Positions 750-18,526 of a DNA stretch of 21,082 bases are shown here, one piece after another (the first letter of the stretch is position 1; the number at the start of each line of letters is the position of its first letter). The position numbers and the translations under genes are program-made. The stretch spans positions 1-21,082 of IMG/VR virus record IMGVR_UViG_3300043436_003907; one strand, written 5' to 3'. Under the pieces are notes generated by a model that was not told the DNA's origin, did no database searches, and saw only the letters and a list, made by a program, of their open reading frames with translations. Source of the stretch: a virus.

Positions 750-2150
750 TTATATGTCCTTAAAAATAGGAAATACTTTTAAAAATTTGCTTTCCCAGTT
801 ACGCTGTTTATTAATTAAATTAATGTATTCTTGAGTTTCAGGCAGTCGAGCAGACCAATCCTCGCTGTTCATAAAATTAATAATTCCCTTAAATCTTTTT
901 AATCCATAATCAGCTTGTAAAAACTGTTCTTTAGAAATATTATTTTCCTGTATACCTGTAAATCTATTCCAATTGTCTTCTATCCATGGATAAAACTCAT
1001 TTTCATATTTGTCAGTAATTTGTTTTTTAATGTGTGCAGGTAATACTTTAACGTTTAATTGTGGTGGCCAATATGCAAAGTGCATATTAATGCCGCCTGC
1101 TCCCAAGGGCCATTTATTAATTTTCTTAAATCCTTGATCAACCTTCCATTTTACAAACTCTGGAATATATGGCACGTTTAATGCCATAAGAGTTGTAGCC
1201 GTAGTAACTTCTACTTGAGGTGCAGTATTGTCAAGTTTCCAAAAAACTTCCTCTTGATGAGACCAGTTGCTAGGATATCGAATATAATCGTTTTGTTCAC
1301 CATATGCATCAATACTATAATGAAAGCGTACACGTTTAAATTCTGCCCATAAATCAAACAAGTCATCTCGCCATTCAACAGCGTTACTATTATATCTTAA
1401 CTCAATATTTTTTGCGTGTCCCCGTCTAATGCATTCTTCAAGAAGATTGTAATGCTCGTCTATAATAAGACTTTCGCCGCCGGCAAAATATAGTTGATAC
1501 ATATTTGGAATTTGTTCATATAACTCATCCCAAAAGCGCGGATTGTTCTTATGCCAATTGTAACTTGCTCCATGAACTCTGCCTTTGTTTTCCCATTGAC
1601 TTGTGTTCTTTAGTTTTTCATTTTGTATTTGTGGAAACACTTGATTCCACTCTTTGATCCAGCCCGAACTATCATGCGGGCTACACATTACACATGCTAA
1701 TTGACATTTACTTCCCATGCGTAAATCAATGTATCTTATTTTTACTGGTATAGATCCGTCTTCTTGAGTTTCTGCAACCAGTTGTTCTAAATCATATCGG
1801 GCACCCCAATACTCCGTTTCCCAATTGCGTTTGCTTAAATGTCCTGCTTCTTCCTCTTTGTAGCATTTTAAACAGCTTGCTGGTTTTTCTCCACGTAACA
1901 TCATGTTTCTTACATTACGCATGTACCCGCTATTCCATGCTTCTTCGAGCGTTGTGTGATTAAAATTTGCTGGGATTCCACTGTCGTTTTTTACTACACC
2001 AACTTCGCCACCGCCGATCTTAATGTTAGAATTTGGATCTTGTACAGAACTTGCGTTACTTGTACAACAAGTTCTCATTTTTCCATCCGGGCGACTCGAT
2101 AAATGAAGCCATGGCAAAGCACAAAATGTTGGAGATGGTAAGTTAGGCAT
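750..2150 (-). CDS. N-terminal-twitch radical SAM protein
   Basis: 466 residues from the chosen start. The N-terminal part carries the twitch-type cysteines: Cys10 in TFCALPWLHL, Cys28 and Cys29 in DGKMRTCC, and Cys93/Cys96 in ASCLKC. The radical SAM cluster motif follows at 149-156 (CQLACVMC, spacing CX3CX2C). The SAM-binding GGEP position reads GGES (224-227). This order, auxiliary cluster first and radical SAM core second, matches the family I know as twitch domain-containing radical SAM protein; the substrate is unknown. The open frame extends upstream to a GTG at 2198. I prefer ATG at 2150 because it gives an 8-base overlap with the upstream PP-loop gene, as at two other junctions here, and puts TFCALPW at the usual distance from the N-terminus. 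A close GGAAG precedes it. Coupled to the PP-loop gene. Confidence 0.85.
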   Translation of the reverse strand: MPNLPSPTFCALPWLHLSSRPDGKMRTCCTSNASSVQDPNSNIKIGGGEVGVVKNDSGIPANFNHTTLEEAWNSGYMRNVRNMMLRGEKPASCLKCYKEEEAGHLSKRNWETEYWGARYDLEQLVAETQEDGSIPVKIRYIDLRMGSKCQLACVMCSPHDSSGWIKEWNQVFPQIQNEKLKNTSQWENKGRVHGASYNWHKNNPRFWDELYEQIPNMYQLYFAGGESLIIDEHYNLLEECIRRGHAKNIELRYNSNAVEWRDDLFDLWAEFKRVRFHYSIDAYGEQNDYIRYPSNWSHQEEVFWKLDNTAPQVEVTTATTLMALNVPYIPEFVKWKVDQGFKKINKWPLGAGGINMHFAYWPPQLNVKVLPAHIKKQITDKYENEFYPWIEDNWNRFTGIQENNISKEQFLQADYGLKRFKGIINFMNSEDWSARLPETQEYINLINKQRNWESKFLKVFPIFKDI

Positions 2151-2823
2151 ATCTTCCAAACGCCCAATATCTTTCTTTACACCACCAGCATTCTCCACAA
2201 TGTTGAGAAAAATCTGTAGTTGTTACCTCACAGCTTCGTGTAAGAGGAAACAGATCTTCTAAAATTCCTAAATTTGTATAGTATTCAGCAATTCCTTTTT
2301 TATCTGTATTAACAAATGGCGAAAAAGAATAAGCTTTTCGCTGATTCTTTTTAGTAGTTTCTTTGAAACGATTATCAGTAGGACCAGTATCTTCTATTTC
2401 TTCGTATAATTCTGGAGCATCATTAATATCCGGAACAGCTGAAATTCCGGTAAGGTGCATGTCTATAAGATTAGAATCGTATAATTGTTGTAAGAGTGTG
2501 TTTTGAACTTCAAGATATCTGTGTGGGTTACGTGTTTCTGTATATGCAACAAAATGCTCTCCAAAATTTTTATAATCAAGGAGTTCTGAAATCTTATTAA
2601 CTATCTGTTTGGCAAAGATTTTTTGATATGGCTTGGCTGATATAACCGCCGTTATCGGATGTATAATAACGTCCGGTCGAGATGCTTTTAAGTACTTTGT
2701 TAGCATATAACAAGCTAAGGCACTGTCTGCTCCGCCACTTAGCTTTATTCCTATTTTTTTAATATGAGTAGGAATTGTGATATCATTAAACTCTATGATA
2801 TCTTGACTATTTTTAAAAATCAT
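2143..2823 (-). CDS. QueC-like PP-loop ATP pyrophosphatase
   Basis: 226 residues. A PP-loop (SGGADS, 29-34) follows a short beta strand (IGIKLSGG), the hallmark of N-type ATP pyrophosphatases that adenylate a substrate. The C-terminus has a four-cysteine zinc-site pattern, Cys198, Cys209, Cys212, Cys215 (HCGECWWCKER at 208-218), matching the C-x(n)-C-x2-C-x2-C arrangement of QueC, which makes preQ0 from 7-carboxy-7-deazaguanine. The middle is not a close QueC match, and no queD, queE or folE is visible. I therefore call it QueC-like rather than queC. The ATG at 2823 is preceded by AAAGG at loose spacing. It overlaps the downstream radical SAM gene by 8 bases and follows the SPASM radical SAM gene by 24, so the three are probably co-translated. 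Alternative: an amide- or nitrile-forming ligase acting on another carboxylate. Confidence 0.8.
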   Translation of the reverse strand: MIFKNSQDIIEFNDITIPTHIKKIGIKLSGGADSALACYMLTKYLKASRPDVIIHPITAVISAKPYQKIFAKQIVNKISELLDYKNFGEHFVAYTETRNPHRYLEVQNTLLQQLYDSNLIDMHLTGISAVPDINDAPELYEEIEDTGPTDNRFKETTKKNQRKAYSFSPFVNTDKKGIAEYYTNLGILEDLFPLTRSCEVTTTDFSQHCGECWWCKERYWAFGRYA

Positions 2824-2847: not shown

Positions 2848-3927
2848 TTATCTAAACTGTTCGGCAAAAGGATCAAATTCGGCGCCACATTTCATAGCAC
2901 ATACTTTAAGTCTTCCTTCGTTATAACTTTTTTCTTCCCAAGAATCTTCAATGAGAGTAAATATTTCTGTGTCAAATATTTTTTTTAATCCATGAATTTT
3001 AGCATTAATTGCATCTTTCCCGCCAGCCATATCGATAAATTGCCATATTTGTTCATTTTTTGGATTTTGATTCCACCATTTATACATACGACCAGCAGTC
3101 CAACAACAAGGCAAAGCTAACCCTTCAGCAGTAATAAACAAACTGCCCTCATCTTTTACTTTACAATAAATTGGCGTTTGTTGATAGTATGCATCCATAC
3201 TGCCATATTTTATTTCTAACAACGATTGTTTTTTTAATGCGCTGTTTACATATTTGTCATCGGGTTTTTTAAGCTCAGTCGTTTGATTACCTTTGCGGTC
3301 AATTGCCTGGTGTGATTCTTTTTTCTTGCTGTCTTGTGTGATAAATCTACCAGTTTTTTTTGGGGTAAATTTTTCAAATCCCCAAATTTTAGAAAGTGCT
3401 TCAGCTTCGTCAACTTGATGTTGATTATGTTCAAATATTAAAAAATCCCATCTAGCTCTACCGCCTGCTGCAATAAAAGCTTTCATGTTGCGTTCTACAT
3501 TTTCCCACACAACTCCTTGCCTATATAAATGATTTGTATCTAATAATCCATCTACACTAAATGTTACAGAACCCATTGTTTTAAAAATATCTGCAAGCTC
3601 TGTCCACCATATTTCATCTCTTGCTCCTGCATTTGTATTCATACTTAACCAAATACGAGAATTATGTTGTCTAAAATAACGAAATATTTCTAATGTGTCT
3701 CTAGCAATAATTGGATCTCCTAAATTTCCACACATGTACATTGTGTTTAATTGTGCTATAAAATCTGGCGGGAATATTTTTTTACAATCATTTAATGTTA
3801 ATTCGCTTAAATCAATATGAGGATTTAGTGCGCCGCCGTTTTGGTTACGATCGCACATAGGACAACTTGCTTGACAGTTTTGTGTAACTTCGAGATGAAT
3901 TTTTTTTATGTCTGAATAATTGTACAT
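2848..3927 (-). CDS. Radical SAM/SPASM domain protein
   Basis: 359 residues. The radical SAM cluster motif is close to the N-terminus at 18-25 (CQASCPMC, CX3CX2C). A GNLGDP segment (68-73) takes the place of the GGEP SAM-contacting motif. Further core strands include LSMNTNAG (94-101) and FSVDGL (123-128). The C-terminal third has SPASM-like auxiliary cluster cysteines: Cys255, Cys274/Cys275 in GLALPCCW, and Cys343/Cys347 in VCAMKCG. Unlike the N-twitch proteins nearby, its auxiliary site follows the core. SPASM enzymes modify peptides, carbohydrates or cofactors; nothing here identifies the substrate, and no precursor-peptide gene is seen next to it. ATG at 3927 lies 9 bases after the stop of the methyltransferase gene. 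No strong Shine-Dalgarno is visible. Confidence 0.85.
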   Translation of the reverse strand: MYNYSDIKKIHLEVTQNCQASCPMCDRNQNGGALNPHIDLSELTLNDCKKIFPPDFIAQLNTMYMCGNLGDPIIARDTLEIFRYFRQHNSRIWLSMNTNAGARDEIWWTELADIFKTMGSVTFSVDGLLDTNHLYRQGVVWENVERNMKAFIAAGGRARWDFLIFEHNQHQVDEAEALSKIWGFEKFTPKKTGRFITQDSKKKESHQAIDRKGNQTTELKKPDDKYVNSALKKQSLLEIKYGSMDAYYQQTPIYCKVKDEGSLFITAEGLALPCCWTAGRMYKWWNQNPKNEQIWQFIDMAGGKDAINAKIHGLKKIFDTEIFTLIEDSWEEKSYNEGRLKVCAMKCGAEFDPFAEQFR

Positions 3928-3936
3928 TTTAAATAT

Positions 3937-4584
3937 TTACTTATAGCCAATTAGCATAAATCTTGTATAATTGTCTAATTCTAGTAATCCTTCATAAAGT
4001 ATATGTGTCATGGGTGCTGTATTTTTAAAATGTTCAATGTCAGTTACACAATTAACATGTTCTTCAATCTTAAAAAAATTATTAGATTGTAATATTATTA
4101 ATGTTTCTTTTGGAATGTTTTCATACCAAATTTTAAAATCGCCAATGTGTTCGCAACTAGTGTTAATAATAGTATCTGGGTATTCGGTTAGTTCTTCTTC
4201 GGAATTATCATATTTTTTTGTTTTATAATTAAATGGATAATTAATATCTAATATATTCATAGTAGTTGCTTTAAATTTCCAACCATTTATTACCCAAGAT
4301 CTGTTAAAGGTATCTGCAATCGGAGCACAAGAATTATCTATGTCAAAGCTTCGTATTTTATCTAATTTCAACGGACTTTCGAATAAAAATGTTGCTAAAC
4401 TACCGTACCACCCACCACATATGAAGATTGTGCCTAAATCTAAATCTAATTTAATTAGTTCGTTAACTAACCAACGCTTCGATTGCATTTGTCCTTTTGA
4501 AAAAAGATCTTTTAAATTTATATCTGGATATTTATTTAATAGTTGTCCAAAATTATCAAAAAATACACTATTGTGAATTGACAT
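3937..4584 (-). CDS. SAM-dependent methyltransferase-like protein (GGWYG motif I)
   Basis: 215 residues from the chosen start. Motif I reads IFICGGWYG (53-61), a variant glycine-rich SAM loop; an acidic residue ends the next strand at SFDID (79-83). A motif-IV-like strand is at TIINTSCEHI (138-147), followed by LIILQSNNF (162-170). I recall this GGWYG type from marine phage genomes, where it is annotated as a class I methyltransferase; the acceptor is unknown. The open frame begins at ATG 4614, but ATG 4584 (MSIHNSVFFDNF) has an AAGGA ribosome binding site with 8-base spacing and cuts the overlap with the upstream repeat protein to 17 bases, so I use it. It lies between the nine-module protein and the SPASM radical SAM gene. 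Confidence 0.75.
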   Translation of the reverse strand: MSIHNSVFFDNFGQLLNKYPDINLKDLFSKGQMQSKRWLVNELIKLDLDLGTIFICGGWYGSLATFLFESPLKLDKIRSFDIDNSCAPIADTFNRSWVINGWKFKATTMNILDINYPFNYKTKKYDNSEEELTEYPDTIINTSCEHIGDFKIWYENIPKETLIILQSNNFFKIEEHVNCVTDIEHFKNTAPMTHILYEGLLELDNYTRFMLIGYK

Positions 4585-7500
4585 CAAATTGTTCCTTAAG
4601 CCATAAAAAGTCATTTATTTTTGCAAGAGCATCTACGTTGTTTTGATTTTCGTAACCGTATATTTTTCCTGCTGTTGCACCGTTAACAGCATACTTTCCA
4701 AACGGGCGGTCTTGTCCTACAGTACACCAAATCTTTAATCTAGTTGCAGTTTCTTCATTTTTCTGTCTATCAATGATATTACTGCTTAGTTTAACACATT
4801 CTCTAAAAGCAGATTTCCATGTATTAAATGGATCTGTGTTGAATGCTGTTGTATTTGAAATTTCCTGAACTGCTTTAAATTTTTTACTAATACTAGTCGT
4901 CATATCCGGCTTCGATGTATCCATATTTAATACTAACTCAGTAGGAAGCAATTTTACGCCGCCGTAACCATATACTAAGTCATTAATAGGATTGATTGAT
5001 CTCCAAACATGTACCGTATCTCGATCCCATCTTGCAACCTGATAGTCAAAATTAAATTTAGAATCAATAAGAGCGTCCCCGTCTACAACCCAAAACATAT
5101 CAGTTGAACATAATTTTGCTGCTTCTATATGAGCTTGGTGAATCCCTTTTACCCCGTGAATTCGTTTAGTATTAGAAAATCTATCTGTAAGATGTTTATA
5201 AAACTCGTCAGCTTTGGGTTCTTGATAACTAATAAAAACTATATCATACGGTTTTGGCGTCGAGATAACAATGTTTATTTCTTTCTTATTGGATATAAAT
5301 TTGTAATCGAGTTCTCGTTTGCTAAATTTTGAATATTTACTACACAATATAATTCCGTCATTGTATTTTCCATTTAAGTATACATGGTTGATTTTTCTTT
5401 CAAAGTTTTGATTATGAGGAAAGTATGTATCAAATTTAAATCTAGTTGACGGTATAACATAGTTCGGAATAATCCAAAACATTTCTGTTTTAGAAGTCGA
5501 TAATGCTGTTAAGTATTCCTCATATGTGTTTATATTGTATTGCTCATATTTTACGGGGCCGCTGGCTACTATAGGCCATTCTTTTCGATGCACTAGATGT
5601 CTGTGTTCGATTTCTTTTTCAGTAATTTTTTCATGCTTGGTTAAAAGAAAAAGCCCATTGTATAAATTCTGAGTATCAACTCTATGTATAAATGCATGAT
5701 TTATTTTTCTGTCATATTCGTTATCATGCGAGAAATAAATGTCAAAGTTAAAATCAGTTGTATCGATATTATTACTAGTACCCCAAAACATTTCTGTTTT
5801 GCTATTTTCAAGTGCATGTAAGTAATCGTTATAAGTTTCTACTATAAAGGTATCATATTTTACAGGGCCACTGGCTACTATAGGCCATTCTTTTCGATGC
5901 ACTAGATGTCTGTGTTCGATTTCTTTTTTAGAAACAGGTGTATGTTTGCTAAACAAAAATATTCCGTTATATAAATCTTTACCGTCTACACTGTGCATAA
6001 ATGCATGATTTATTTTTCTGTCATATTCGTTATCATGCGAGAAATAAATGTCAAACTTAAATTCTTTATTTATTTCTATGTTATTGCTTGTACCCCAAAA
6101 CATTTCTGTTTTGCTATTTTCAAGTGCATGTAAGTAATCGTTATAAGTTTCTACTATAAAGGTATCGTACTGTATAGGACCGCTGGCTACAATGGGCCAT
6201 TCTTTTCGATGCACCGGGTGTCTATATTCTATTTCTTTTTCTGACAACGGAGTATACTTGCTTAAAAGAAAAACACCATTGTATAGATTATTGCCATCTA
6301 CTTGATGTATAAACGCATGATTTGTTTTTCTTTCGGTGATAAATTCGTTATCTCTGTAATCATAATATATGTTAAAGTCAAAATTTTGATCAATTTGTAT
6401 GTTACGACTAATACCCCAAAACATTTCTGTTTTAGATTTTTTAAGTGCTTCTTTATAATCTTCGAAACTGTCTATATCAAAAATATCATACGAAACATAA
6501 GTAGAAGCAATAGTAGGCCATTCTTTTCTATTTACAATAAATCGATGCTCAATTTCTTTTTTAGAAACAGGTACATGCTTACTAAACAAAAATATTCCAT
6601 CGTATGTATGTTTTCCTAAAACATCGTGGACAAATGCATGGTTTATTTTTCTGTCGTATTCGTTATCATGCGAGAAATAAATGTTAAAATTAAACGTCTC
6701 TAAAACTTTTATTTTTGAACTTGTACCCCAAAACATTTCTGTTTTGCTATTTTCAAGTGCATGTAAGTAATCGTCGTACGAATCAATATCAAACTTATCG
6801 TACTGTACAGGCTTACTTGCTACAACAGGCCATTCTTTAGCATTGACTATAAATCGATACTCAATTTCTTTTTTTGTTAATGTGCAATGTTTACTACAAA
6901 GAAAAACACCGTTATATAGATTTTTATCATCTACTCGATGTATAAACGCATGATTTATTCTAGAATCGTAGTTGTCGTGTGATACATAAATGCTATGTAA
7001 AATGTTTAAGTCAGCTGTTATATTTCTCGATAACATCCAGAACATATCGGTTGTAGAATTCTCAAGTGCATACAAATACTCATCGTAGGTATCTATATTA
7101 AAGTAATCGTATTTTACAGGACCACTAGCTACAATAGGCCATTCTTTTCTATTTACAATAAAGCGATGTTCTACTTCCCGTTGTGTTAAAGATTTATTTT
7201 TACTACAAAGAAAAACACCATTATAATAATCAGTATTATTAACTCGATGTATAAATGCATGATTTTCGTTTCTATCATAACTGTTATGATGAGAAATATA
7301 AAAGTCTTTTATAACACTGCTGATAAATTGTAAATTTTTTGACAACATCCAAAACATGCCTGTTTTGCTATTTTCAAGTGCATATAAGTACTCTTCGTAG
7401 GTATCTATATTAAATTGATCATAAGCAGTAGAAACACTAGCTTTTACAGCAACTTCTTTTTTATTGATAAAAAATCGGTGTATGATTTCTTTATCAGTAA

Positions 7501-7768
7501 TAGAAGCTGTTTTAGGAACCAAACAAATTCCATCGTAATGCTCATTGTTTAAAAAAACATGAACGTGTTGTTTACTCCAATTATCCGGATTATAAGAAAA
7601 GTCAAAACTTTCTAGTACTTTGCAATCATTCCATACTACCCAAAAAAAATCAGTCATAGCCAATCGTTGGGCATGTCTAAAGTCTTCTGCTTTTTTTGCA
7701 ATAGGAAATCTAATTTTAAATTCTTTATATTCTTCTACTGTTGGATTAATAAGAATTATATCGTACAT
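4568..7768 (-). CDS. Nine-module protein: eight degenerate GT-A-like modules plus one DGD-containing C-terminal domain
   Basis: 1066 residues. Module 1 (1-115) has the core FFWVVWND (41-48) and HVHVF (68-72). Modules 2-8 span 116-219, 220-322, 323-426, 427-533, 534-637, 638-740 and 741-840, each about 103 residues. Each contains a (T/S)(D/E/G)MFW core, an (S/Y)-H-type acidic loop, NHAF(I/V/M)H, YNG(V/I/L)FL and KEWP(I/V)VAS. The C-terminal domain (841-1066) contains MFWVVDGDALI (891-901), HVWRSINPIND (920-930) and VYGYGGVKLLP (932-942), which align with the repeat landmarks. The DGD triad (896-898) resembles the metal- and nucleotide-sugar-binding DxD of GT-A glycosyltransferases and is absent from every other module. 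I read this as one catalytic domain preceded by eight pseudo-domains. The C-terminal family is one I recall from marine phages; its activity is unproven. The ATG at 7768 follows the radical SAM stop by 10 bases. Confidence 0.85.
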   Translation of the reverse strand: MYDIILINPTVEEYKEFKIRFPIAKKAEDFRHAQRLAMTDFFWVVWNDCKVLESFDFSYNPDNWSKQHVHVFLNNEHYDGICLVPKTASITDKEIIHRFFINKKEVAVKASVSTAYDQFNIDTYEEYLYALENSKTGMFWMLSKNLQFISSVIKDFYISHHNSYDRNENHAFIHRVNNTDYYNGVFLCSKNKSLTQREVEHRFIVNRKEWPIVASGPVKYDYFNIDTYDEYLYALENSTTDMFWMLSRNITADLNILHSIYVSHDNYDSRINHAFIHRVDDKNLYNGVFLCSKHCTLTKKEIEYRFIVNAKEWPVVASKPVQYDKFDIDSYDDYLHALENSKTEMFWGTSSKIKVLETFNFNIYFSHDNEYDRKINHAFVHDVLGKHTYDGIFLFSKHVPVSKKEIEHRFIVNRKEWPTIASTYVSYDIFDIDSFEDYKEALKKSKTEMFWGISRNIQIDQNFDFNIYYDYRDNEFITERKTNHAFIHQVDGNNLYNGVFLLSKYTPLSEKEIEYRHPVHRKEWPIVASGPIQYDTFIVETYNDYLHALENSKTEMFWGTSNNIEINKEFKFDIYFSHDNEYDRKINHAFMHSVDGKDLYNGIFLFSKHTPVSKKEIEHRHLVHRKEWPIVASGPVKYDTFIVETYNDYLHALENSKTEMFWGTSNNIDTTDFNFDIYFSHDNEYDRKINHAFIHRVDTQNLYNGLFLLTKHEKITEKEIEHRHLVHRKEWPIVASGPVKYEQYNINTYEEYLTALSTSKTEMFWIIPNYVIPSTRFKFDTYFPHNQNFERKINHVYLNGKYNDGIILCSKYSKFSKRELDYKFISNKKEINIVISTPKPYDIVFISYQEPKADEFYKHLTDRFSNTKRIHGVKGIHQAHIEAAKLCSTDMFWVVDGDALIDSKFNFDYQVARWDRDTVHVWRSINPINDLVYGYGGVKLLPTELVLNMDTSKPDMTTSISKKFKAVQEISNTTAFNTDPFNTWKSAFRECVKLSSNIIDRQKNEETATRLKIWCTVGQDRPFGKYAVNGATAGKIYGYENQNNVDALAKINDFLWLKEQFDVNSQ
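4593..4597 (-). promoter_or_regulatory. Ribosome binding site deciding the start at 4584
   Basis: AAGGA on the minus strand, 8 bases before ATG 4584. The alternative ATG at 4614 has no comparable site, which supports the shorter methyltransferase. Confidence 0.65.
5249..7423 (-). repeat. Seven tandem coding repeats, period about 309-312 bases
   Basis: In-frame tandem repeats inside the nine-module gene. Unit spans are 7112-7423, 6803-7111, 6491-6802, 6170-6490, 5858-6169, 5549-5857 and 5249-5548. Each unit begins with a Tyr-Asp/Glu (or Tyr-x-x-[FY]) segment and ends at KEWP..AS or its variant. Divergence is uneven: the outer units (7112-7423, 5249-5548) are the most different and the inner ones the most alike. 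A more divergent first unit lies at 7424-7768, and the intact domain follows at 4571-5248. Confidence 0.9.
5549..6169 (-). repeat. Nearly identical adjacent repeat pair
   Basis: Units 6 (5858-6169) and 7 (5549-5857) are the closest pair. A 77-base run is identical between 5778-5854 and 6090-6166, an offset of 312. A second stretch covering KEWPIVASGPVK differs at only a few bases. Their first 31 residues are the same. This indicates a recent duplication or ongoing gene conversion within the array. Confidence 0.9.
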
Positions 7769-9329: not shown

Positions 9330-10171
9330 GTGTTAGAATATTTTTCTTTAATAAAACCGGCTAATTCTTCTGCTATTACTTTATACCCGTCAATAGTAGG
9401 GTGTATACAATTAGTTAAATGTTTTTTTGGATAATCTAAATTACTATAGTGTTCGTAATAGTGCGGCTGTCGTTCTTCTGAAAGCCAGTTGTCTTTTTTA
9501 ATCAATAATTCTACAAATGTGTTATAATCTTTGTAATCGTGTATATAGCAAGACCAGTCTACTTTATTTGCTAAATTGCCACAGTGCTTAAATAAAAATT
9601 CTTTGCCACGATCATCAAAAGCATTTGCTAAAACAAACTGCAATCCGTTAGCTTTACAAAAAGTTTGGACTTCTAAGATATTACACAAAGTTTCAGCGGC
9701 AGTTCCATCTTCTGCATAAACTTGACGTGTGTATATATCCCATAATTTATTATTGCCTAAATGCGGCCACACTGTTTGAAAATTATAATGTCCTGCATCT
9801 TTAGTATTGCTGTTATAACAAATTTTTGGATTTTTCCAACTGTCTCTAAAAAAATCATATCTTTCGTATCCACTTAGCATGAATACTACTGTCCCACTTT
9901 TAATGTTTGAAAAATCCAAATTTGTAAGATATAAGCTTCTTGCGCTACCTCGATTACCCATACCACGTTGTCCCAAGTTACAAGGAATATAGTTTTTTAA
10001 ATGATCTCTACATAATACATTAACCCAACTATTTTCATGTTCTTGTGGTATAAGATGATAGCTTTCATGCATCGGAAGATTAATTTTTCCGTTATATTGC
10101 TTCCACGTTTCATCAGAGTATCCTCCTTCACCCTGTGTCCAGCTACATCCTAACCCAATTAATACATTCAT
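9326..10171 (-). CDS. SGNH/GDSL-like hydrolase
   Basis: 281 residues, no signal peptide. Block I with the nucleophile is GLGCSWTQGEG (Ser10 in G-C-S-W-T) directly after an N-terminal beta strand. The oxyanion region is NLGQRGMGNRGSAR (65-78), with Gly and Asn candidates. A strand, VVFMLSGYERYDFF (95-108), follows in the place of block III. The C-terminal block V is NCIHPTIDGYKVIAEEL (254-270), with His257. In SGNH enzymes this block is normally DxxH; here the Asp position is Asn254, so activity may be weak or altered. SGNH members deacylate polysaccharides and lipids. The ATG overlaps the amidinotransferase stop by one base (TAATG), so the two are coupled. Its own stop lies inside the -35 hexamer of the next promoter. 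It could be a carbohydrate esterase or a non-catalytic SGNH fold. Confidence 0.75.
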   Translation of the reverse strand: MNVLIGLGCSWTQGEGGYSDETWKQYNGKINLPMHESYHLIPQEHENSWVNVLCRDHLKNYIPCNLGQRGMGNRGSARSLYLTNLDFSNIKSGTVVFMLSGYERYDFFRDSWKNPKICYNSNTKDAGHYNFQTVWPHLGNNKLWDIYTRQVYAEDGTAAETLCNILEVQTFCKANGLQFVLANAFDDRGKEFLFKHCGNLANKVDWSCYIHDYKDYNTFVELLIKKDNWLSEERQPHYYEHYSNLDYPKKHLTNCIHPTIDGYKVIAEELAGFIKEKYSNT

Positions 10172-11211
10172 TAGCTATAATCTCCGTACTGATCATCTCT
10201 TACAGTGTCTAATGTAGCACAATGTGGACCACCGCTTAAGGTTCTAGCATGACGCATTTGTACTGGCATTATATCAAACCCATTGGATTCAAGTTGTCGT
10301 ATTAGCGGAATTTGTGTTTGTTCTACTGCAACTAAGTTTTCGCTAATACTTAATACATTCATGCTTAACCAAGGACTTGCTGCGGCCCAGTGTTCTATAA
10401 AAGGAGTAGGAATAGGGTCTGCTGCCCAAATTTTATCCCACGATTTAAAGTATTCGGGAATATTGTTATCGTTAACTCTACTAGGATTTAACAAAACTTT
10501 TCCCGGAGCCAGTGGTAATATAGTTGTATCAACGTGAACATAAGCGTATATATTGTCCATAACATGAACATTATATTTTTCGCCTAGCGTAGATTGTAAC
10601 CACTGAGCTCCTAATCTATTACCGGAGTTTGACACAAGATAAAAAATATCTTTTCCACATTTTATCACATTTGCTGCGTCAAAGGCTATTTCAAAATCCG
10701 TAAGTGTAGGTTTTGACAAGTCTGTACGATCATATAAATCATCTAACAATTCTGGCTTCGGTGCAGAAATCCAGTTACTTCCTTTAGAAAAATAATCTTT
10801 AAATATTTTTTTATATGCTAATGTTTCAAAATATCGAGACCTCAACGGCATAGGAGTTTCTATTAAAGTATCTCCTATTACCAATACACTATCACGTGGG
10901 CAATAAGAATAATAGCCATCACTAGTCCAGTCTGGGCTAGCACATAGTAACCCTAGATTCTTTACCTCGGGTCGCAATACTTTTACGCCAGCCGATTCAA
11001 GTTGTGTTTGAAATACACTTAAATCTTCGATGGTTTCTTCGATTACCTGGCTAGGATATTTGCCGCCTGGCAATCCCGATGTTGTATCATAGTTTGCATA
11101 ATCGACACAGTGAATGTCGTGCTTTTTTGTTTTAGGTATTTGTGCATTTTCAGCACGGCCTAAAATTACTTCTTTAAGGGTTCCCCACTCAGTATTCGAA
11201 TTAACTTTCAT
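10171..11211 (-). CDS. Amidinotransferase-family protein (glycine/inosamine amidinotransferase-like)
   Basis: 346 residues, close to the usual length of the family. It opens with EWGTLKEVILGRAE (8-21), a typical N-terminal strand of the pentein fold. The family's RD motif is CPRDS (104-108). The probable catalytic triad is Asp178 (FDAANV), His226 (YVHVDTT) and Cys331 (GGPHCATLDT). Members move the amidino group of arginine to an amine acceptor such as glycine, a fatty-amine-type precursor or an aminocyclitol. All three residues are present, so activity is likely; the acceptor is not predictable. The gene overlaps the aminotransferase-like gene upstream by 11 bases and the SGNH gene downstream by one. 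A gene able to install an amine directly before a gene able to amidinate one suggests sequential steps (inference). An arginine deiminase-type hydrolase is a less likely alternative. Confidence 0.88.
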   Translation of the reverse strand: MKVNSNTEWGTLKEVILGRAENAQIPKTKKHDIHCVDYANYDTTSGLPGGKYPSQVIEETIEDLSVFQTQLESAGVKVLRPEVKNLGLLCASPDWTSDGYYSYCPRDSVLVIGDTLIETPMPLRSRYFETLAYKKIFKDYFSKGSNWISAPKPELLDDLYDRTDLSKPTLTDFEIAFDAANVIKCGKDIFYLVSNSGNRLGAQWLQSTLGEKYNVHVMDNIYAYVHVDTTILPLAPGKVLLNPSRVNDNNIPEYFKSWDKIWAADPIPTPFIEHWAAASPWLSMNVLSISENLVAVEQTQIPLIRQLESNGFDIMPVQMRHARTLSGGPHCATLDTVRDDQYGDYS

Positions 11212-11857
11212 ATATTCTATAAGGCCAAAAAACCTTTTGCTCCTTTAAATTTTTATATGTTAAATTGCTACCAGTGTCTGGATTTTCGTCTGGCAACTCT
11301 TCCATTAGTAATAGTCCAGTAGCTGCTTCTTCTGGGGTCATATACATATGGTAACCAATACATTCATACTCGTCTTCAGAGTGCATTATGTACTTGTGTC
11401 TGCCATCGTATATCATCGGACGGCACCACTCGACAAAATCTTTGTCATCGGTTAAAATAACACCACCTTTGCCTATTTTAAGAGTTTTTCTATGGTGAAA
11501 ACTAACACAAAAATAACTGTCTGGCAAGTACATGTTTTTTCTAAAGCAAGTTGCTGCATCAACTATAGGAGTAGGTTCCAAATAATAGATTCCGCTCCAT
11601 TCTTTTTCAACAAATTTAATGGTATTTCCTGCATGTATTATTTGCATAGGAGTGCTTGCATAAGTATGCGAGGGAATTGTGATTGTTTGATTGTATATTT
11701 TTAAATATTTCATACAAAGAAACATAGCATTTGAACAACTATCAACACAAACTGCATATTTTGATCCTGCATATTCTGCTAATTTATTTTCAAATAATGT
11801 TACTGCATCCCATGGGTCATTTATCGCATACCCTTTATTTTTCAGTTGGGATATCAT
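11201..11857 (-). CDS. Short DegT/DnrJ/EryC1/StrS-type aminotransferase
   Basis: 218 residues from the chosen start, against about 370 for the family. Present elements: the N-terminal FENKLAEYAGSKYAVCVDSC (22-41), the PSHTYASTP segment (62-70) that normally contacts PLP, an Asp in PIVDAA (97-102), and the lysine-bearing SFHHRKTLKIGKGG (119-132), with Lys124 the candidate Schiff-base lysine. A GYHMYMTPEEAA segment (168-179) matches the G-x-N-x-R-M-x-x-x-x-A block, but most of the C-terminal small domain is missing. The family aminates keto-sugars with glutamate as donor. ATG 11857 is chosen over ATG 11929 because of an AGGAG site with 6-base spacing; the extra 24 codons only shadow the upstream gene. 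It overlaps the oxygenase gene by 23 bases. It may act with a partner, or be a reduced form special to phages. Confidence 0.8.
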   Translation of the reverse strand: MISQLKNKGYAINDPWDAVTLFENKLAEYAGSKYAVCVDSCSNAMFLCMKYLKIYNQTITIPSHTYASTPMQIIHAGNTIKFVEKEWSGIYYLEPTPIVDAATCFRKNMYLPDSYFCVSFHHRKTLKIGKGGVILTDDKDFVEWCRPMIYDGRHKYIMHSEDEYECIGYHMYMTPEEAATGLLLMEELPDENPDTGSNLTYKNLKEQKVFWPYRIYES

Positions 11858-12575
11858 AGGGTTCTCCTGTTTCTTCGTCAAACCAATAAAGACTTCTATG
11901 AGGTAAATCTTTAGAATCGTACTCTGCATTACTTACATAAAAGAACAATCTAAATGCATTTCTTGTTATATTTTCAGGACATGTTAACGGATCTGGAAAT
12001 CCATGAAATCCTTTTTTATGATGTCTCCATAATACTGCGCGGTTAAACAATGGAGGAACACGCTGTATCACATTTTTATTTTGAAAATCATTAAATTGCA
12101 AATGGCCTCCCCATTCTTCTTTCCAGTCGCTATTTAAATATATAATAAAAGACAACATGCGGTGTACTTTCATTGAATCGTTCCAATTAAAGTCTGTGTG
12201 TATTTTTAAAGACGATCCTGACTTAATCTTACTATATCCTGCACCTACTAAATAGGGATCAGGGATCAAGTCTTTAATCCCTGTTATTTCAGTAAGCCAT
12301 TTCATGAATTGCTGACTGTGAAATTGATTTACAAAACTTTCTGCAACAGGAGCAACATTCATGTTTATGCATTCTTTCATACTGCTGCCACGTCTAGTAA
12401 ATTCTGTCCAATAATGATCTGGAATTGTGTTGCATTCTTTTTCTAATTCAAGAGCTAGTTCAGTAGGAAGAAAGTCGTCTAGAACAATCATTGGATACGG
12501 CGGTGTTCCTACAAAAGTATCGTTTAGCTTTTTAGTATTGTTAAATTTTGTTCTAATATGGTCAATAATTTTCAT
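11835..12575 (-). CDS. 2-oxoglutarate/Fe(II)-dependent oxygenase (prolyl-4-hydroxylase-like)
   Basis: 246 residues. The facial-triad motif HxD is in LKIHTDFNW (His126, Asp128) and the distal histidine in GFHGFPDP (His191). An arginine for the 2-oxoglutarate carboxylate is in RNAFRLFFY (Arg209, or Arg205). Strands MLSFIIYLNSDW (140-151) and GGHLQF (156-161) form the expected double-stranded beta-helix core, and VLDDFLP (31-37) is the usual N-terminal entry. All cofactor ligands are present, so hydroxylase activity is likely. Such enzymes are common in marine phages and act on proteins, amino acids, nucleotides or sugars; the substrate here is not evident. ATG 12575 follows the preceding stop by 13 bases, and the 3' end overlaps the aminotransferase gene. 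Its place among sugar-modifying genes hints at a metabolite or glycan substrate. Confidence 0.9.
   Translation of the reverse strand: MKIIDHIRTKFNNTKKLNDTFVGTPPYPMIVLDDFLPTELALELEKECNTIPDHYWTEFTRRGSSMKECINMNVAPVAESFVNQFHSQQFMKWLTEITGIKDLIPDPYLVGAGYSKIKSGSSLKIHTDFNWNDSMKVHRMLSFIIYLNSDWKEEWGGHLQFNDFQNKNVIQRVPPLFNRAVLWRHHKKGFHGFPDPLTCPENITRNAFRLFFYVSNAEYDSKDLPHRSLYWFDEETGEPYDIPTEK
11864..11868 (-). promoter_or_regulatory. Ribosome binding site deciding the start at 11857
   Basis: AGGAG on the minus strand, 6 bases before ATG 11857 and inside the end of the oxygenase gene. It is one of the best ribosome binding sites in the window and supports the shorter aminotransferase. Confidence 0.75.
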
Positions 12576-12588
12576 TTTAATACTTTCT

Positions 12589-13854
12589 TTAATATTGATT
12601 GTTAAACCAATGATCCGGTATCTTATCTAGCAATAAATTATCAAATGTTTTGTCAAATGTTTGATAATTTATATTAGATTTAATATCAACTAACTTATTC
12701 ATGACTAAATTATAATTGTGTGTTGTTTCCGGAATAGTTTTGTAAATAGTTTTCTTGAATTCTTCGTCAGAAATATTATTAAGATCTTCTACCTGATTAT
12801 GAATATGGTAAATTCTTGCCCATACACTATCTAGTGTGTCGTAGGTTTCATCAAATGCGTTAGAAAAAGTTTTAAATCCATACTGACGAGTACGATATAA
12901 TTGGTGTTGCGTTCCATACACAAAAAACGGATGTCTATATATCATAGATTTATAAGTTTTTTCTGTACACTGAAAATGATCTGCTGAATCAAATGCATTT
13001 GTTTCTACTAATAGACTCATAGCAGAATTTGTAAATGCGTCTTGTAATGTATTAGAAATAAACTGTTGTCCAGGTCGGCCTGGGATTTCCTCAGTTTCAT
13101 TATTAAGCAGATATGGCATGCCTTCGACAATGTTTATTTTTTCATCATTCCAGTATTCGTGTAATTCTTTTGCCCATTGAGAATTTATTGCTGATAAAGC
13201 TGGTATATTTGTATTAACATATTCATCCATTTCTGTTATTGAATAATATTCATAAGGGTCTGTGTTAGGATTCGAATATACATCCTTAACGTTAAAAAAA
13301 GAATAATAACAATTGTCTAATATTCCTCTTCTTTTTAAATCAATAAATGAAATAAGTCTTGATTGATTCCAGTTTCTGCTTAAAAACAAAAATCGTTTTT
13401 TATATCGTCTGCCCAAAAATTCATTAAATGCTATATGAGTTGGTCCCTGAATAATAACAAAATTTATTTTTGTGTCTTTGTCAATTATACGCTTTATTAA
13501 CTCACATTCATGCTGTGAATGTGATATTATTAATATTTTTTTGTCAGGGATTTTATTTGTTTCTATCCATTTTTTTAATTTTTCAATAATATATATATTA
13601 GTACCGTCACAAAAATCTACTAAAAACAAAGCATCTAATTTTTTAAATTTTTTACTATCAAATAAAAACTCGTCATTTATTGCTTGTTCTCGTATATATA
13701 CTATTTTTTGCAATAAAGATTTACTATCAACAAACACACCAAAGTTATTTACTATTTCTACTTTATTCATATCAAAATGTCTATGATGGTTACTTATTGG
13801 ATTTCTTGATGGATATCTTGAAAGACCATAAAGTAAGTATTCTTTTTTGCTCAT
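12589..13854 (-). CDS. Two-lobed ET..TEKT family protein, putative glycosyltransferase-like
   Basis: 421 residues. The N-terminal half looks Rossmann-like, with strands at LDALFLVDF (73-81) and KKILIISHS (105-113). The family landmark FLFLSRNWNQSRLISFIDL (155-173) is followed by GILDNCYYSF. The C-terminal lobe holds SLLVETNAF (280-288), CTEKTYKSMIYRHPFFVYG (296-314) and FDETYD (334-339). The same landmarks occur in 15173-16435, 16478-18526 (twice) and 20419-21082, so this is the most divergent of five copies. The E-T..T-E-K..P-F pattern resembles the donor-binding half of GT-B glycosyltransferases such as family GT10, but this is resemblance only. ATG 13854 overlaps the UDP-sugar dehydrogenase stop as ATGA. 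No signal peptide or membrane segment is seen. Confidence 0.6.
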   Translation of the reverse strand: MSKKEYLLYGLSRYPSRNPISNHHRHFDMNKVEIVNNFGVFVDSKSLLQKIVYIREQAINDEFLFDSKKFKKLDALFLVDFCDGTNIYIIEKLKKWIETNKIPDKKILIISHSQHECELIKRIIDKDTKINFVIIQGPTHIAFNEFLGRRYKKRFLFLSRNWNQSRLISFIDLKRRGILDNCYYSFFNVKDVYSNPNTDPYEYYSITEMDEYVNTNIPALSAINSQWAKELHEYWNDEKINIVEGMPYLLNNETEEIPGRPGQQFISNTLQDAFTNSAMSLLVETNAFDSADHFQCTEKTYKSMIYRHPFFVYGTQHQLYRTRQYGFKTFSNAFDETYDTLDSVWARIYHIHNQVEDLNNISDEEFKKTIYKTIPETTHNYNLVMNKLVDIKSNINYQTFDKTFDNLLLDKIPDHWFNNQY

Positions 13855-15172: not shown

Positions 15173-16435
15173 TTATTTTTGGCAAGAACATTTTACTACA
15201 GTTACTTCTATATTATACTTGTTAACTACATACTCAAATTCCGGTGTTACTTCTGCAAAACTCTCGTCCTCTACAAAAATTGTAATGTTTAAAGGTTTGT
15301 GTTGTTCTATTTCTTGTATTATCTTACTAAACTCAAAATCTTGGCAAAAGTTGTATTTAAAACGAAAAGGTCTTCCATAAAAGTTTCGTTTAATAATTTC
15401 TTTATTTTTAATTTCTCTAAATTCTTCTATTAACACAAAATCGCATTCACTAATTAAATCGGTATTCCAACTAACTATGTCTTCGTACCTTTCTTTGATT
15501 AGATGAGGAATAGTATCCCACGACTGAAAGAATGTTTTTGCATGATTTTTATTTCTTTCAATTTTATGTTCTATTGATTTGTATAATATGTCAATTCTGT
15601 GAAAATTATCGATAACAAATTTTACATTTTTTAAAATTAATGCTATTCTTAAATCAAGCGATTCAACTTCGTCAAACGAATAGTCAAAAATTTCTGTGTA
15701 TAACTCAAATCCTAAATCTTTTAATTTTTGATGAAAGCCCGGGGCGCCTAAGGTTAAAAAAGGTAGACCGCAAAGTATAGGAGTCGCTGTTTTTTCGGAT
15801 ATTAATACTACATTAACATCAGTTTCCGTTGGTATGTGTAAAAAGCTTTGTAAAAATCTTTTATCAAATTTGTAACTCGAAGGATCTGTTGTAAAACCAT
15901 CGTCAATAGTAATAGGAGTTCCGTTGTGGTATTTCCAATTAAAATCATCGTCGGGCGCTCCCATCATATGATAGGTTACTATTCCTTTGTCTAAATAATT
16001 TCGCTTAACGAGTTGATCAACTATTGTGGATCTATGATGATTTGTTCGGCCGTTAAAACATAAAAAAGGATATAAAAAATTTTTATTTGATGTAATAGTA
16101 GAATAAAGAAACGAATTATCCCTAATTATGTTAAAATGACTTTTCATAAACCAATAACCTGGCCATATTTCTACACGCAATAGTTCATTGCGTACTCCAA
16201 CATCGGTTAGCCTGCGAGTAAGCCAATCTAAATCAGCCGAACAAGTTATTAAATTAATTTTAATATTATTATCATTAATAAATTTTGCTGTTTCATTTGT
16301 TATACTAAAGTCATATTCAAAATACCAATAAAAATAAAAATCTGTGTATTTGCCAGATTGAATCAACATATCATTTGGCAAAAATCCATCTTGCCATGTA
16401 TAATAATGATATTTTTTTACTTCTTTTTTATCCAT
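15173..16435 (-). CDS. Two-lobed IPTET..SEKT family protein with truncated second module
   Basis: 420 residues. Module 1 runs from about 30 to 320. Rossmann-like strands include INLITCSADLDWL (60-72) and the WPGYWF motif (91-96). FLCFNGRTNHHRSTIVDQL (124-142) is followed by DKGIVTYH (149-156). The second lobe has SFLHIPTETDV (197-207), SEKTATPILCGLPFLTLG (213-230), LGFELYTEIFDYSFD (241-255). Residues 365-420 (IIQEIEQHKPLNITIFVED and what follows) align with residues 365-415 of the 682-residue neighbour, where a second module begins. Here the frame stops after about 50 residues of it, so this looks like a two-module protein cut short. Function: putative glycosyltransferase-like, by weak motif resemblance. 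ATG 16435 lies 42 bases after the upstream stop, with no clear ribosome binding site. Confidence 0.6.
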   Translation of the reverse strand: MDKKEVKKYHYYTWQDGFLPNDMLIQSGKYTDFYFYWYFEYDFSITNETAKFINDNNIKINLITCSADLDWLTRRLTDVGVRNELLRVEIWPGYWFMKSHFNIIRDNSFLYSTITSNKNFLYPFLCFNGRTNHHRSTIVDQLVKRNYLDKGIVTYHMMGAPDDDFNWKYHNGTPITIDDGFTTDPSSYKFDKRFLQSFLHIPTETDVNVVLISEKTATPILCGLPFLTLGAPGFHQKLKDLGFELYTEIFDYSFDEVESLDLRIALILKNVKFVIDNFHRIDILYKSIEHKIERNKNHAKTFFQSWDTIPHLIKERYEDIVSWNTDLISECDFVLIEEFREIKNKEIIKRNFYGRPFRFKYNFCQDFEFSKIIQEIEQHKPLNITIFVEDESFAEVTPEFEYVVNKYNIEVTVVKCSCQK

Positions 16436-16477: not shown

Positions 16478-18526
16478 TTATATATTAGTATTTAAAATAC
16501 AAAAATACTTGTTTAATCTTCCGTGATCGGTAAGAGGTGCAGGCTCAATTTTTGTAATACAATTTTTTATCTCACTGGGTATAAAACTCCTGTCATCGAT
16601 TATTTTTAAAAAATTTTGATAATTAAATTCTATTTTTGGTTTTAATAAATTATATACTTCGTCAAAATTTCTTATATTGCTAATTTTTTCCATGTTCTTT
16701 ACAAATTTGTGAGCACGAGTGTCAAGATCTTCTATAACGTCAAAACTGTAATCTATTATTTCGTCGTATAATACAAATCCTAACTCCTGTAAATACTTAT
16801 TAAAATACGGTGCTGATAGTGTAACAAACGGTTTTTTTAAAATTATCGGTGTTATAGTTTTTTCACTGATCATTATTGTTTCGTGAGAACATTCTGTAAC
16901 AAAGTCAAATAGACTTTCGTGATACTGATGAGGAAGCAAAAATGAATCAAGCTTTACATCAAACTCGTCGTCAATTTTCTTAACAGTGTTATCAAAATAT
17001 TTAAACTTAAAGTTGGTATTTTCTTTTAGAAAATTATGCCAAGTTACAACACCTTTGTCAAATAAATTATATTTTGAAATATAATCTATTGCATGACAAC
17101 GATGTAAGTGTCCACGGTTGTTAAAACATACAAATGGATATAAAAAAGTTTTTTGATTTTGTAAATTTGATATATCTTGTTGTTTTAAAATAGACAGTGT
17201 ATGATTAAACCAAAAGGTCGGATAATGTTTTAATTTAAAGTTTTTAATACCAAAATTATTTACACGGTCAGAAAGATATTTAGATTCAGGAGATCCTGTA
17301 ATCCACGTTACTTTAATATTACGCAAATTTACTGTATTTACAAATTCTTGTGTTACCCATGGATCCCACTCATTTTCTCCATAAATTGTAACCAATTCAG
17401 GATTTCCATGTTCGATGCTTTGGATTAATTCATCGTAACTAAAATTATGCCACAAGTCAGCTTCAAGCTCAAAAACTTTATCTTTATATTTTTGTGTATC
17501 AATATTATATGTTTTAAATTTAGAGAAAAGCTCTATTAATTCTCTGTTATAACCAGATAGGTGTGTTTGATTACGTAATTTAGTATTAACAAACTTTTTA
17601 ACTAAAATAGGTACATGCTCGTCAGTTTTTGTTATATCTAGTGCCAATTTTCTGTTATAATCTAATTTATCTTTTATCTTTTTATACAAGTCATTTAAGT
17701 TATCTTTTTGATTTATAACTTCTGTTACATTTGTCATCAACTTTTGTATACGCTGTTCAATGTCTGCTTCGTCGTCAAAAGAATAATCAAAGATTTCATC
17801 ATATAATTTAAAACCCATGTCTTGAAGATTTTTATGATAATGCTGTGATCCAAGTGTTAATGTCGGTAACCCACACAATATAGGATTGGCTGTTTTTTCA
17901 GATAAAAGAAATGTATCAACAGTTGTTTCTGTCGGTATGTGTAAAAATGATTCTAAAAAAGTCTGATTAAAATGATAACTAGAAAAATGATTTTCAAATC
18001 CGTCGCCAGAAAGCAATATTTCTCCTGTGTAGTATTTCCAATTTTCTTGTTTTTCATCTTGAGGGATTTGCTGGTAAGAAACTATTCCTTCTTTAATATA
18101 ATTATTTTTTGCTAACTCGTCTATCCACAGTGTTCGCTGAGGGCGAGTTCTCCCATTAAAAGTTAAAAAAGGATTTTTAAAATCAAATTTATGCTTTTTA
18201 ATATTGTTAAAAAAAGCGTTGTTTTGCTCAAGCTCGTGTGCTGCTTTTAAAAACCAAAACGTCGGCCATGTAATGACTTTTGTTATCAAATCTTTATTGA
18301 TACCCAATTTACTAACATTATTATGTAACCATTTTTTATCTTTTATACAGAGTATAACTGTTACAGTAATAGAATTTTTATTAATGTAGTCAACCACATG
18401 TTTTGATAAATTTATTTCGCATTCGTGCATATAAAAAAAATTTATATGCTTTAATTTTTTCATCTTTATATAATTGTATAACTCGTCGCTAACAAATTCC
18501 CATGCATAAATTGTATTATCAATCAT
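16478..18526 (-). CDS. Two-module IPTET..SEKT family protein, putative glycosyltransferase-like
   Basis: 682 residues with two copies of the same two-lobed module. Module 1 (about 25-310): WPTFWF (87-92), FLTFNGRTRPQRTLWIDEL (120-138), EGIVSYQ (146-152), SFLHIPTETTVDTFLLSEKT (193-212), PILCGLPTLTLG (215-226), EIFDYSFD (244-251). Module 2 (about 365-645): YPTFWF (435-440), FVCFNNRGHLHRCHAID (465-481), KGVVTWH (491-497), FVTECSHETIMISEKT (542-557), PFVTL (566-570), EIIDYSFD (589-596). Module 2 has lost IPTET but keeps SEKT. No transmembrane segment or signal peptide is visible. ATG 18526 overlaps the radical SAM stop by 8 bases (ATGATTGA). The resemblance to GT10-like donor-binding motifs suggests, but does not show, a glycosyltransferase; alternatively one module may be regulatory. 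Confidence 0.6.
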   Translation of the reverse strand: MIDNTIYAWEFVSDELYNYIKMKKLKHINFFYMHECEINLSKHVVDYINKNSITVTVILCIKDKKWLHNNVSKLGINKDLITKVITWPTFWFLKAAHELEQNNAFFNNIKKHKFDFKNPFLTFNGRTRPQRTLWIDELAKNNYIKEGIVSYQQIPQDEKQENWKYYTGEILLSGDGFENHFSSYHFNQTFLESFLHIPTETTVDTFLLSEKTANPILCGLPTLTLGSQHYHKNLQDMGFKLYDEIFDYSFDDEADIEQRIQKLMTNVTEVINQKDNLNDLYKKIKDKLDYNRKLALDITKTDEHVPILVKKFVNTKLRNQTHLSGYNRELIELFSKFKTYNIDTQKYKDKVFELEADLWHNFSYDELIQSIEHGNPELVTIYGENEWDPWVTQEFVNTVNLRNIKVTWITGSPESKYLSDRVNNFGIKNFKLKHYPTFWFNHTLSILKQQDISNLQNQKTFLYPFVCFNNRGHLHRCHAIDYISKYNLFDKGVVTWHNFLKENTNFKFKYFDNTVKKIDDEFDVKLDSFLLPHQYHESLFDFVTECSHETIMISEKTITPIILKKPFVTLSAPYFNKYLQELGFVLYDEIIDYSFDVIEDLDTRAHKFVKNMEKISNIRNFDEVYNLLKPKIEFNYQNFLKIIDDRSFIPSEIKNCITKIEPAPLTDHGRLNKYFCILNTNI

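Follow-up and report, generated by a model that had tools for sequence, protein, structure and literature searches.

A phage gene joining an array of predicted non-catalytic GT-A-like modules to a single putative glycosyltransferase domain

The window studied here is the 21,082-base IMG/VR virus contig IMGVR_UViG_3300043436_003907. We have analyzed one of its genes, an open reading frame (ORF) on the minus strand, positions 4568–7768, which is open over its whole length and codes for a protein of 1066 amino acids (aa). This protein contains nine [M/F]FW anchors, at aa 41, 138, 242, 345, 449, 556, 660, 763 and 891. They correspond to a first module (M1), seven repeats of about 103 aa (M2–M8) and one C-terminal domain. 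A first-pass annotation, made from the sequence alone, had counted eight copies and one C-terminal domain, a count borne out by the anchors and by matches to hidden Markov models (HMM). The parts of the gene are the following:

4568–7768, minus strand: whole array gene, with M1, seven trimmed modules and a catalytic GT-A-like domain (ORF; module and C-terminal domain HMMs)
7478–7768, minus strand: M1 (aa 1–97), N-terminal copy with a near-complete GT-A core (b1-a1-b2-a-b4...), WND replacing DxD (hhalign against the C-terminal domain, E=1.8e-24; model confidence 93)
7166–7477, minus strand: M2 (aa 98–201), trimmed non-catalytic GT-A-like module (module HMM, 165.6 bits)
6857–7165, minus strand: M3 (aa 202–304), trimmed module (179.2 bits)
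6545–6856, minus strand: M4 (aa 305–408), trimmed module (181.6 bits)
6224–6544, minus strand: M5 (aa 409–515), trimmed module of 107 aa (169.2 bits)
5912–6223, minus strand: M6 (aa 516–619), trimmed module, 84% identical to M7 in DNA and 80% in protein (module HMM; pairwise identity)
5603–5911, minus strand: M7 (aa 620–722), trimmed module; the equivalent unit is absent in the near-identical virus L002 (module HMM; comparison with L002)
5303–5602, minus strand: M8 (aa 723–822), C-terminal cap class of module, with MFWIIP and INHVYLNGK (HMM; position classes)
4568–5248, minus strand: catalytic GT-A-like domain, predicted (aa 841–1066; alignment, model and Foldseek matches in PDB)
5075–5083, minus strand: DGD (aa 896–898), putative metal/nucleotide-sugar DxD motif
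4958–4972, minus strand: YGYGG (aa 933–937), candidate G-loop; its conserved glycine is the first G of the final GG
4799–4807, minus strand: FRE (aa 988–990), candidate position of the catalytic base, which no module has

Identities between pairs of M2–M8 range from 38 to 80% in protein and from 53 to 84% in DNA. The module HMM gives 109–189 bits for every repeat, 26.5 for M1 and 8.3 for the C-terminal domain. Its phase begins at "HRF", while the structural unit extends from the YDxF strand through the following KEWxIVAS strand.

Profile comparisons indicate that the modules and the C-terminal domain are homologous. When a profile of 122 non-redundant modules is aligned by hhalign with one of 42 catalytic domains, the match has a probability of 96.3% and E=1.7e-9 over 66 columns. 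A chance resemblance is excluded by the controls, as the probability stays at or below 0.9% when the columns are shuffled (30 runs) and is 0.75% for a reversed profile. The order of landmarks shared by repeats and C-terminal domain, already noticed in the first-pass annotation, is thus beyond chance. By the same kind of evidence, M1 is the link between the trimmed modules and the C-terminal domain, since it matches both: the C-terminal domain profile with a probability of 99.6% and E=1.8e-24 over 92 columns, and the internal modules with E=1.8e-25. This confirms the intermediate place first proposed for it. The C-terminal domain matches internal modules with E=1.3e-9 and last modules with E=4.5e-11. 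A second catalytic paralogue, A (32–35% identical), often precedes the array gene. An origin of M1 from A, rather than from the catalytic domain of the array gene (B), is disfavoured, with E=9.9e-7 for M1 and A as compared with 1.8e-24 for M1 and B.

Two AlphaFold models were built with alignments of family loci. One covers M1–M3, with a predicted local distance difference test (pLDDT) of 93.2 and a predicted template modelling score (pTM) of 0.85; the other extends from M6 to the C-terminal domain (pLDDT 90.7, pTM 0.77). Modules and C-terminal domain have been compared by the order of their secondary-structure elements, not by superposition. In the C-terminal domain the predicted order is b1-a1-b2-a-b4(DxD)-b-b-b-a-long b, followed by about five helices. 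M1 is predicted to have the same order up to the long strand, and the trimmed modules the same order minus the a1-b2 hairpin. The helical tail, which bears an invariant Arg-Glu, is absent from all modules in the models.

Foldseek matches point in the same direction. For the model containing the C-terminal domain, the 50 PDB matches listed are all glycosyltransferases (GTs), except one nucleotidyltransferase (HddC), with E from 6e-5 to 9e-4. The M1–M3 model retrieves, weakly, mostly GT-A glycosyltransferases and nucleotidyltransferases (E 0.01–0.24, none below 0.001, probability up to 0.95), together with a few others, such as methionyl-tRNA synthetase and PIP synthase. In BFVD, its first two matches are phage proteins, 804 and 1076 aa long and uncharacterised, followed mostly by glycosyltransferases and uncharacterised proteins. 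A repeat fold unrelated to that of the C-terminal domain is excluded by the models and by Foldseek. The first-pass annotation had named such an unrelated fold, or the lack of a significant HMM match, as results which would refute its proposal; the profile match is significant and the M1–M3 model retrieves mainly enzymes of GT-A type. Modules M1–M8 are, according to models and profiles, of GT-A-like fold, homologous to the GT-A domain, without the DxD and without the complete core.

Only the last domain appears to be catalytically competent, as judged by its motifs. All 143 viral and bacterial catalytic domains keep both Asp of the DxD, the conserved Gly in YGYGG and the Arg of FRE, and the Glu of FRE is found in 142 of them. 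On the other hand, a DxD is found at the corresponding place in none of 486 modules across the family, and the remark that the last copy alone keeps its DGD is borne out. Five homologues (L013, L017, L020, L022 and L046) do have a DKD, but it lies in an additional N-terminal domain, not in modules. This domain, about 150 aa long with VWVVDKD, is perhaps a further GT-A-like copy which keeps its DxD before the array. The C-terminal domain has GT-A topology in its predicted fold, with the DxD after the Rossmann half and a G-loop glycine (aa 936) assigned by sequence order, not by superposition. FRE, with Glu but no Asp, is a candidate for the acidic residue of xED type; GT-A families which use Glu, or which have no xED Asp, have been reported (PMC7185993).

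The family is widespread. Matches to the catalytic domain occur on at least 537 viral contigs (the best 80 are listed), and 92 distinct array ORFs are present in the loci examined. The number of modules before the single catalytic domain ranges from 0 to 17 among the ORFs fetched. They form a series: standalone domains of 226–238 aa, M1 plus catalytic domain (355–373 aa), M1 plus last module plus catalytic domain, and so on up to 2013 aa. The first module is of M1 type in 49 of 49 arrays and the last one of LAST type in 44 of 49; the models of these classes were built from the same sequences they classify, so these counts measure consistency, not prediction.

Array length also varies between close relatives. 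The L002 array gene has no mismatch with that of the window in the aligned part, but 309 bp, one module, are missing from it. The flanks are mostly 95–100% identical, with one 300-bp bin at 87%. The missing stretch is:

5620–5928, minus strand: 309 bp (one module) missing in L002; a 58-bp direct repeat lies at the breakpoint, and the exact position can slide

A second pair, L017 and L046, is 99.98–100% identical over 15 kb, save for an in-frame difference of 207 bp. Assembly collapse might explain such differences: it is possible for L002, given the direct repeat, but it is not the simplest reading for L017 and L046, where the breakpoint has no repeat. An apparent difference of eight modules in L080 is due to a frame break (two overlapping ORFs), and this locus has been left out of the length comparison. 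We should also note that two array genes, L025:5905-9753 and L080:272-4688, are each split, by a stop codon or a shift of frame, while their arrays are normal in other respects; the break may be real or a sequencing error.

The modules are under purifying selection: they are maintained rather than decaying, as indicated by the low ratio of nonsynonymous (dN) to synonymous (dS) substitutions. M6 and M7 have dN 0.113 and dS 0.618, M4 and M6 0.204 and 0.837, and M1 compared with L004 0.262 and 0.859; dS is saturated or undefined in several wider module comparisons. Decaying copies are excluded by these values. Besides the core, the polar residues conserved in internal modules are R2, K8, E9, D69, R70, N73, H74 (1.00), S93, K94 and E102 (1.00); G88 (1.00) is also conserved. 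The first-pass annotation had called the copies degenerate, a term which misleads in view of the selection on the modules and of their positional classes.

In a tree of the family, phage and bacterial catalytic domains fall together (support 100/100), internal and last modules form another group (99/94) and M1 lies between them. The tree is based on few columns, its support values are rough, a few rows are misplaced and the forks within the module side are poorly resolved. As it separates catalytic domains from trimmed modules with M1 between, the simplest history would be that catalysis was lost early and that modules already dead were amplified later. Repeated duplication of a catalytic domain, with loss of catalysis in the copies, had been proposed originally. 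Homology and loss of the catalytic motif stand; the tree favours amplification of modules which were already dead over repeated duplication of a catalytic domain. In the proposed sequence of events, one early duplicate of the catalytic domain would have lost catalysis and given rise to the M1 type, a descendant of which would have lost the alpha1-beta2 hairpin to become the trimmed unit. This unit would then have been amplified by in-frame duplication and deletion, the array length shifting by whole or partial units.

The array gene belongs to a cassette with a GT, a methyltransferase and two radical S-adenosylmethionine (SAM) enzymes, which is also found in bacterial genome assemblies. Its neighbours in the window are:

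3937–4614, minus strand: probable class I SAM methyltransferase of 225 aa, next cassette gene; its homologue adjoins the GT gene in several bacterial assemblies
2848–3927, minus strand: cassette radical SAM enzyme, with a homologue in L167 which is fused to the GT-A domain
750–2198, minus strand: radical SAM enzyme of the cassette; homologues 56–77% identical are found near the GT in L159–L161, L163, L168 and L175
7779–9284, minus strand: radical SAM enzyme, encoded immediately upstream of the array gene

Of 67 arrays whose flanks are long enough, 25 have a homologue of the methyltransferase within 3 kb downstream, and about 19–22 have radical SAM homologues. The neighbouring genes include a GT, a methyltransferase, radical SAM enzymes and a nucleotide-sugar dehydrogenase. 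In bdellovibrio-type assemblies the catalytic domain is accompanied by homologues of the same methyltransferase (35–54% identical) and of the radical SAM enzymes (35–77%). In L167, a metagenome-assembled genome (MAG) titled Oligoflexia, one ORF of 654 aa (L167:6747-8708) fuses a radical SAM enzyme of the 2848–3927 type to a catalytic GT-A domain. Most bacterial loci are MAG contigs; L158 and L159 in particular look phage-like and may be misbinned, while L161 is part of a 494-kb contig.

The carriers include large phages: arrays are found together with a tail sheath on contigs of 330 and 382 kb, and the sheath and neck proteins of array loci are 34–47% identical to those of giant phages of PA5oct, Atu_ph07 and Phosso type. 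No recognised structural gene is present in the window. L005, a locus of the 330-kb contig, and L004 have array proteins of the same length (858 aa), and L004 shows about 80% DNA identity to the window over 7.7 kb. Among the cultured phages of INPHARED, searched with three family members, no convincing relative of the array protein has been detected. The cassette methyltransferase has one distant relative there, annotated as a putative methyltransferase, in Pelagibacter phage Mosig.

Some other genes of the window deserve a comment, all of them on the minus strand. Inside the cassette, 2143–2823 codes for a PP-loop/QueC-like ATPase (phrog_1550, E 2e-7), with homologues in only 12 of the viral loci fetched. 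Gene 10171–11211 codes for a 346-aa phrog_25854 protein (E 7e-41), whose match to arginine deiminase in Pfam is weak and falls short of the cut-off. At 11201–11929 and 11835–12575, an ORF for a 242-aa DegT-type aminotransferase and a 2-oxoglutarate-Fe(II) oxygenase-like ORF overlap by 95 bp in different frames; the DegT-type protein is shorter than the family model, its best match covering profile positions 5–94 of 360. A second expanded family is also present: 16478–18526 holds two stretches of the 15173–16435 type, each about 35% identical, and 12589–13854 and 20419–21081 are weaker relatives. Pfam, searched with the 12589, 15173 and 16478 genes, gave no match above threshold. Finally, the product of 18519–20516 is a B12-binding radical SAM protein whose nearest match is to KedN5-type C-methyltransferases (E 3.7e-73, short of the curated cut-off).

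What could such an array be for? We infer, as the likeliest reading and with a probability of roughly 0.4, that the protein is a large-phage glycosyltransferase with a stiff modular arm, which binds or positions a repetitive acceptor for its one terminal glycosyltransferase domain. In this tentative reading, a dead and trimmed GT-A domain has been turned into a repeat unit. Arrays of 1–17 units, with N-cap and C-cap classes, would form a selectable, length-variable arm for binding glycan or another substrate, attached to a single active glycosyltransferase and changing in length between sister strains. The acceptor might be a surface polysaccharide or a virion glycoprotein. Each module would have one low-affinity site, array length would tune reach and avidity, and the C-terminal domain would add a sugar which the methyltransferase and radical SAM enzymes encoded nearby make or modify. 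The conserved polar residues fit one site per module, although they could equally be packing contacts. Modification of surface glycans would be a reasonable setting by analogy with pelagimyophages, in whose host-recognition islands fibres occur together with glycosyltransferases and radical SAM cassettes (PMC7029224).

Several observations weigh against this reading. Three modules are predicted to pack fairly rigidly, as the pTM of the M1–M3 model suggests, so that their conserved residues may serve packing between modules. Standalone catalytic-domain genes without modules are also found in phages, hence the basic reaction does not require the array. The Pfam GT2 families (Glycos_transf_2, Glyco_tranf_2_3, Glyco_tranf_2_4) remain below the gathering threshold, with 12.8–17 bits for cut-offs of 23.3–27.5, and the best Pfam GT match has E 0.0087, also below threshold. 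The label "glycosyltransferase" is therefore a putative one: it comes from the predicted fold, the motifs and the neighbouring genes rather than from a match to a family. No conserved His is found in the C-terminal half of the catalytic domain among the 143 sequences. The C-terminal metal-coordinating His has been lost independently across GT-A families (PMC7185993), so its loss does not exclude this fold class.

Alternatively, the modules may be a docking scaffold which holds the cassette partners (methyltransferase, radical SAM enzymes and upstream GT paralogue) and channels an intermediate to the terminal GT. The conservation of the cassette across phages and bacterial assemblies would agree with this, as would the polar positions conserved in each module, and the fusion in L167 implies that physical coupling does occur. 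We consider it unlikely nonetheless: bacterial cassettes occur without modules, and array length ranges over 0–17 modules and differs between near-identical strains, while partner stoichiometry should be constrained. An inert, stiff arm, which sets how far the GT lies from an anchor or how long the glycan becomes, in the manner of the coiled coils of some chain-length regulators, would account for the rigid, high-confidence packing in the models, the stepwise variation in length and the distinct first and last module classes. It is rather improbable, given the strong conservation of polar residues inside modules; in addition, neither a coiled coil nor a membrane anchor was seen in the protein of the window, for which no dedicated prediction was made. 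The array might also be a fibre or adhesin-like rod of the virion surface, the GT domain being an ancestral remnant or a tip enzyme. Tail, neck or fibre genes are present in 33 of the 94 larger array loci, and the pelagimyophage islands offer a parallel (PMC7029224), but the GT domain shows no variation in its catalytic motifs, PHROGs gives no match to a tail-protein family and the cassette partners are enzymes, which makes this quite doubtful. Spread of functionless repeats by slippage is the least probable explanation: whole- or partial-unit indels between near-identical strains do show turnover, but dN/dS is low, residues are invariant across 73 non-redundant internal modules and the positional classes are conserved.

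Whatever the function of the array, our literature search found no description of a GT-A-type glycosyltransferase preceded by amplified dead copies of itself, of arrays of dead GT-A domains, or of this cassette. Non-catalytic glycosyltransferase domains are known singly. The first-pass annotation, which knew of no described protein with this layout, is supported to this extent; the layout is not unique, as the viral contigs, the array ORFs and two BFVD entries indicate. Common as it is in environmental phage contigs, the family lies outside the collections searched: Pfam, PHROGs and NCBIfam give no match above threshold for the array protein (NCBIfam FtsQ, E 0.003, is far below its cut-off), and a PDB sequence search with the family gives no convincing relative. 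Its series of 0, 1, 2 ... 17 modules, with a bacterial catalytic outgroup, offers a test case for the change of an enzyme fold into a structural or binding repeat. It also ties a phage glycosyltransferase to a conserved methyltransferase and radical SAM cassette which bacterial genome assemblies also contain.

One comparison is provided by the two BFVD proteins from uncultured Caudovirales phages, A0A6J5LK21 (804 aa) and A0A6J5L5L5 (1076 aa), which align along the M1–M3 model with E 1.1e-11 and 8.5e-11 (TMq 0.48–0.49). They apparently have the same kind of tandem arrangement, according to this fold alignment; they are uncharacterised and only 11–12% identical. The bacterial homologues (L158–L236, from Bdellovibrionia and Oligoflexia assemblies, Photorhabdus and Streptomyces, standalone and paired) have a catalytic domain about 30–65% identical, but none of them contains modules. 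The GT-A glycosyltransferases found as structural matches (RmlT, WrtF, SunS, the K4CP chondroitin polymerase, ppGalNAc-transferases and the PBCV-1 capsid glycosyltransferase 2p72) share the predicted GT-A-type core, the DxD, the candidate G-loop and a conserved Glu after the core. In contrast to them, the phage protein has a helical C-terminal tail and a preceding array of dead copies, with neither a conserved C-terminal His nor a family match above threshold. Among multi-domain GT-A proteins, K4CP, LARGE and ppGalNAc-T carry one extra GT or an unrelated lectin (PMC7185993, in part). The phage protein resembles them in joining an apparently active GT-A domain to extra modules, but the extra modules of its family are 1–17 dead GT-A copies used as repeat units, whose number varies from strain to strain.

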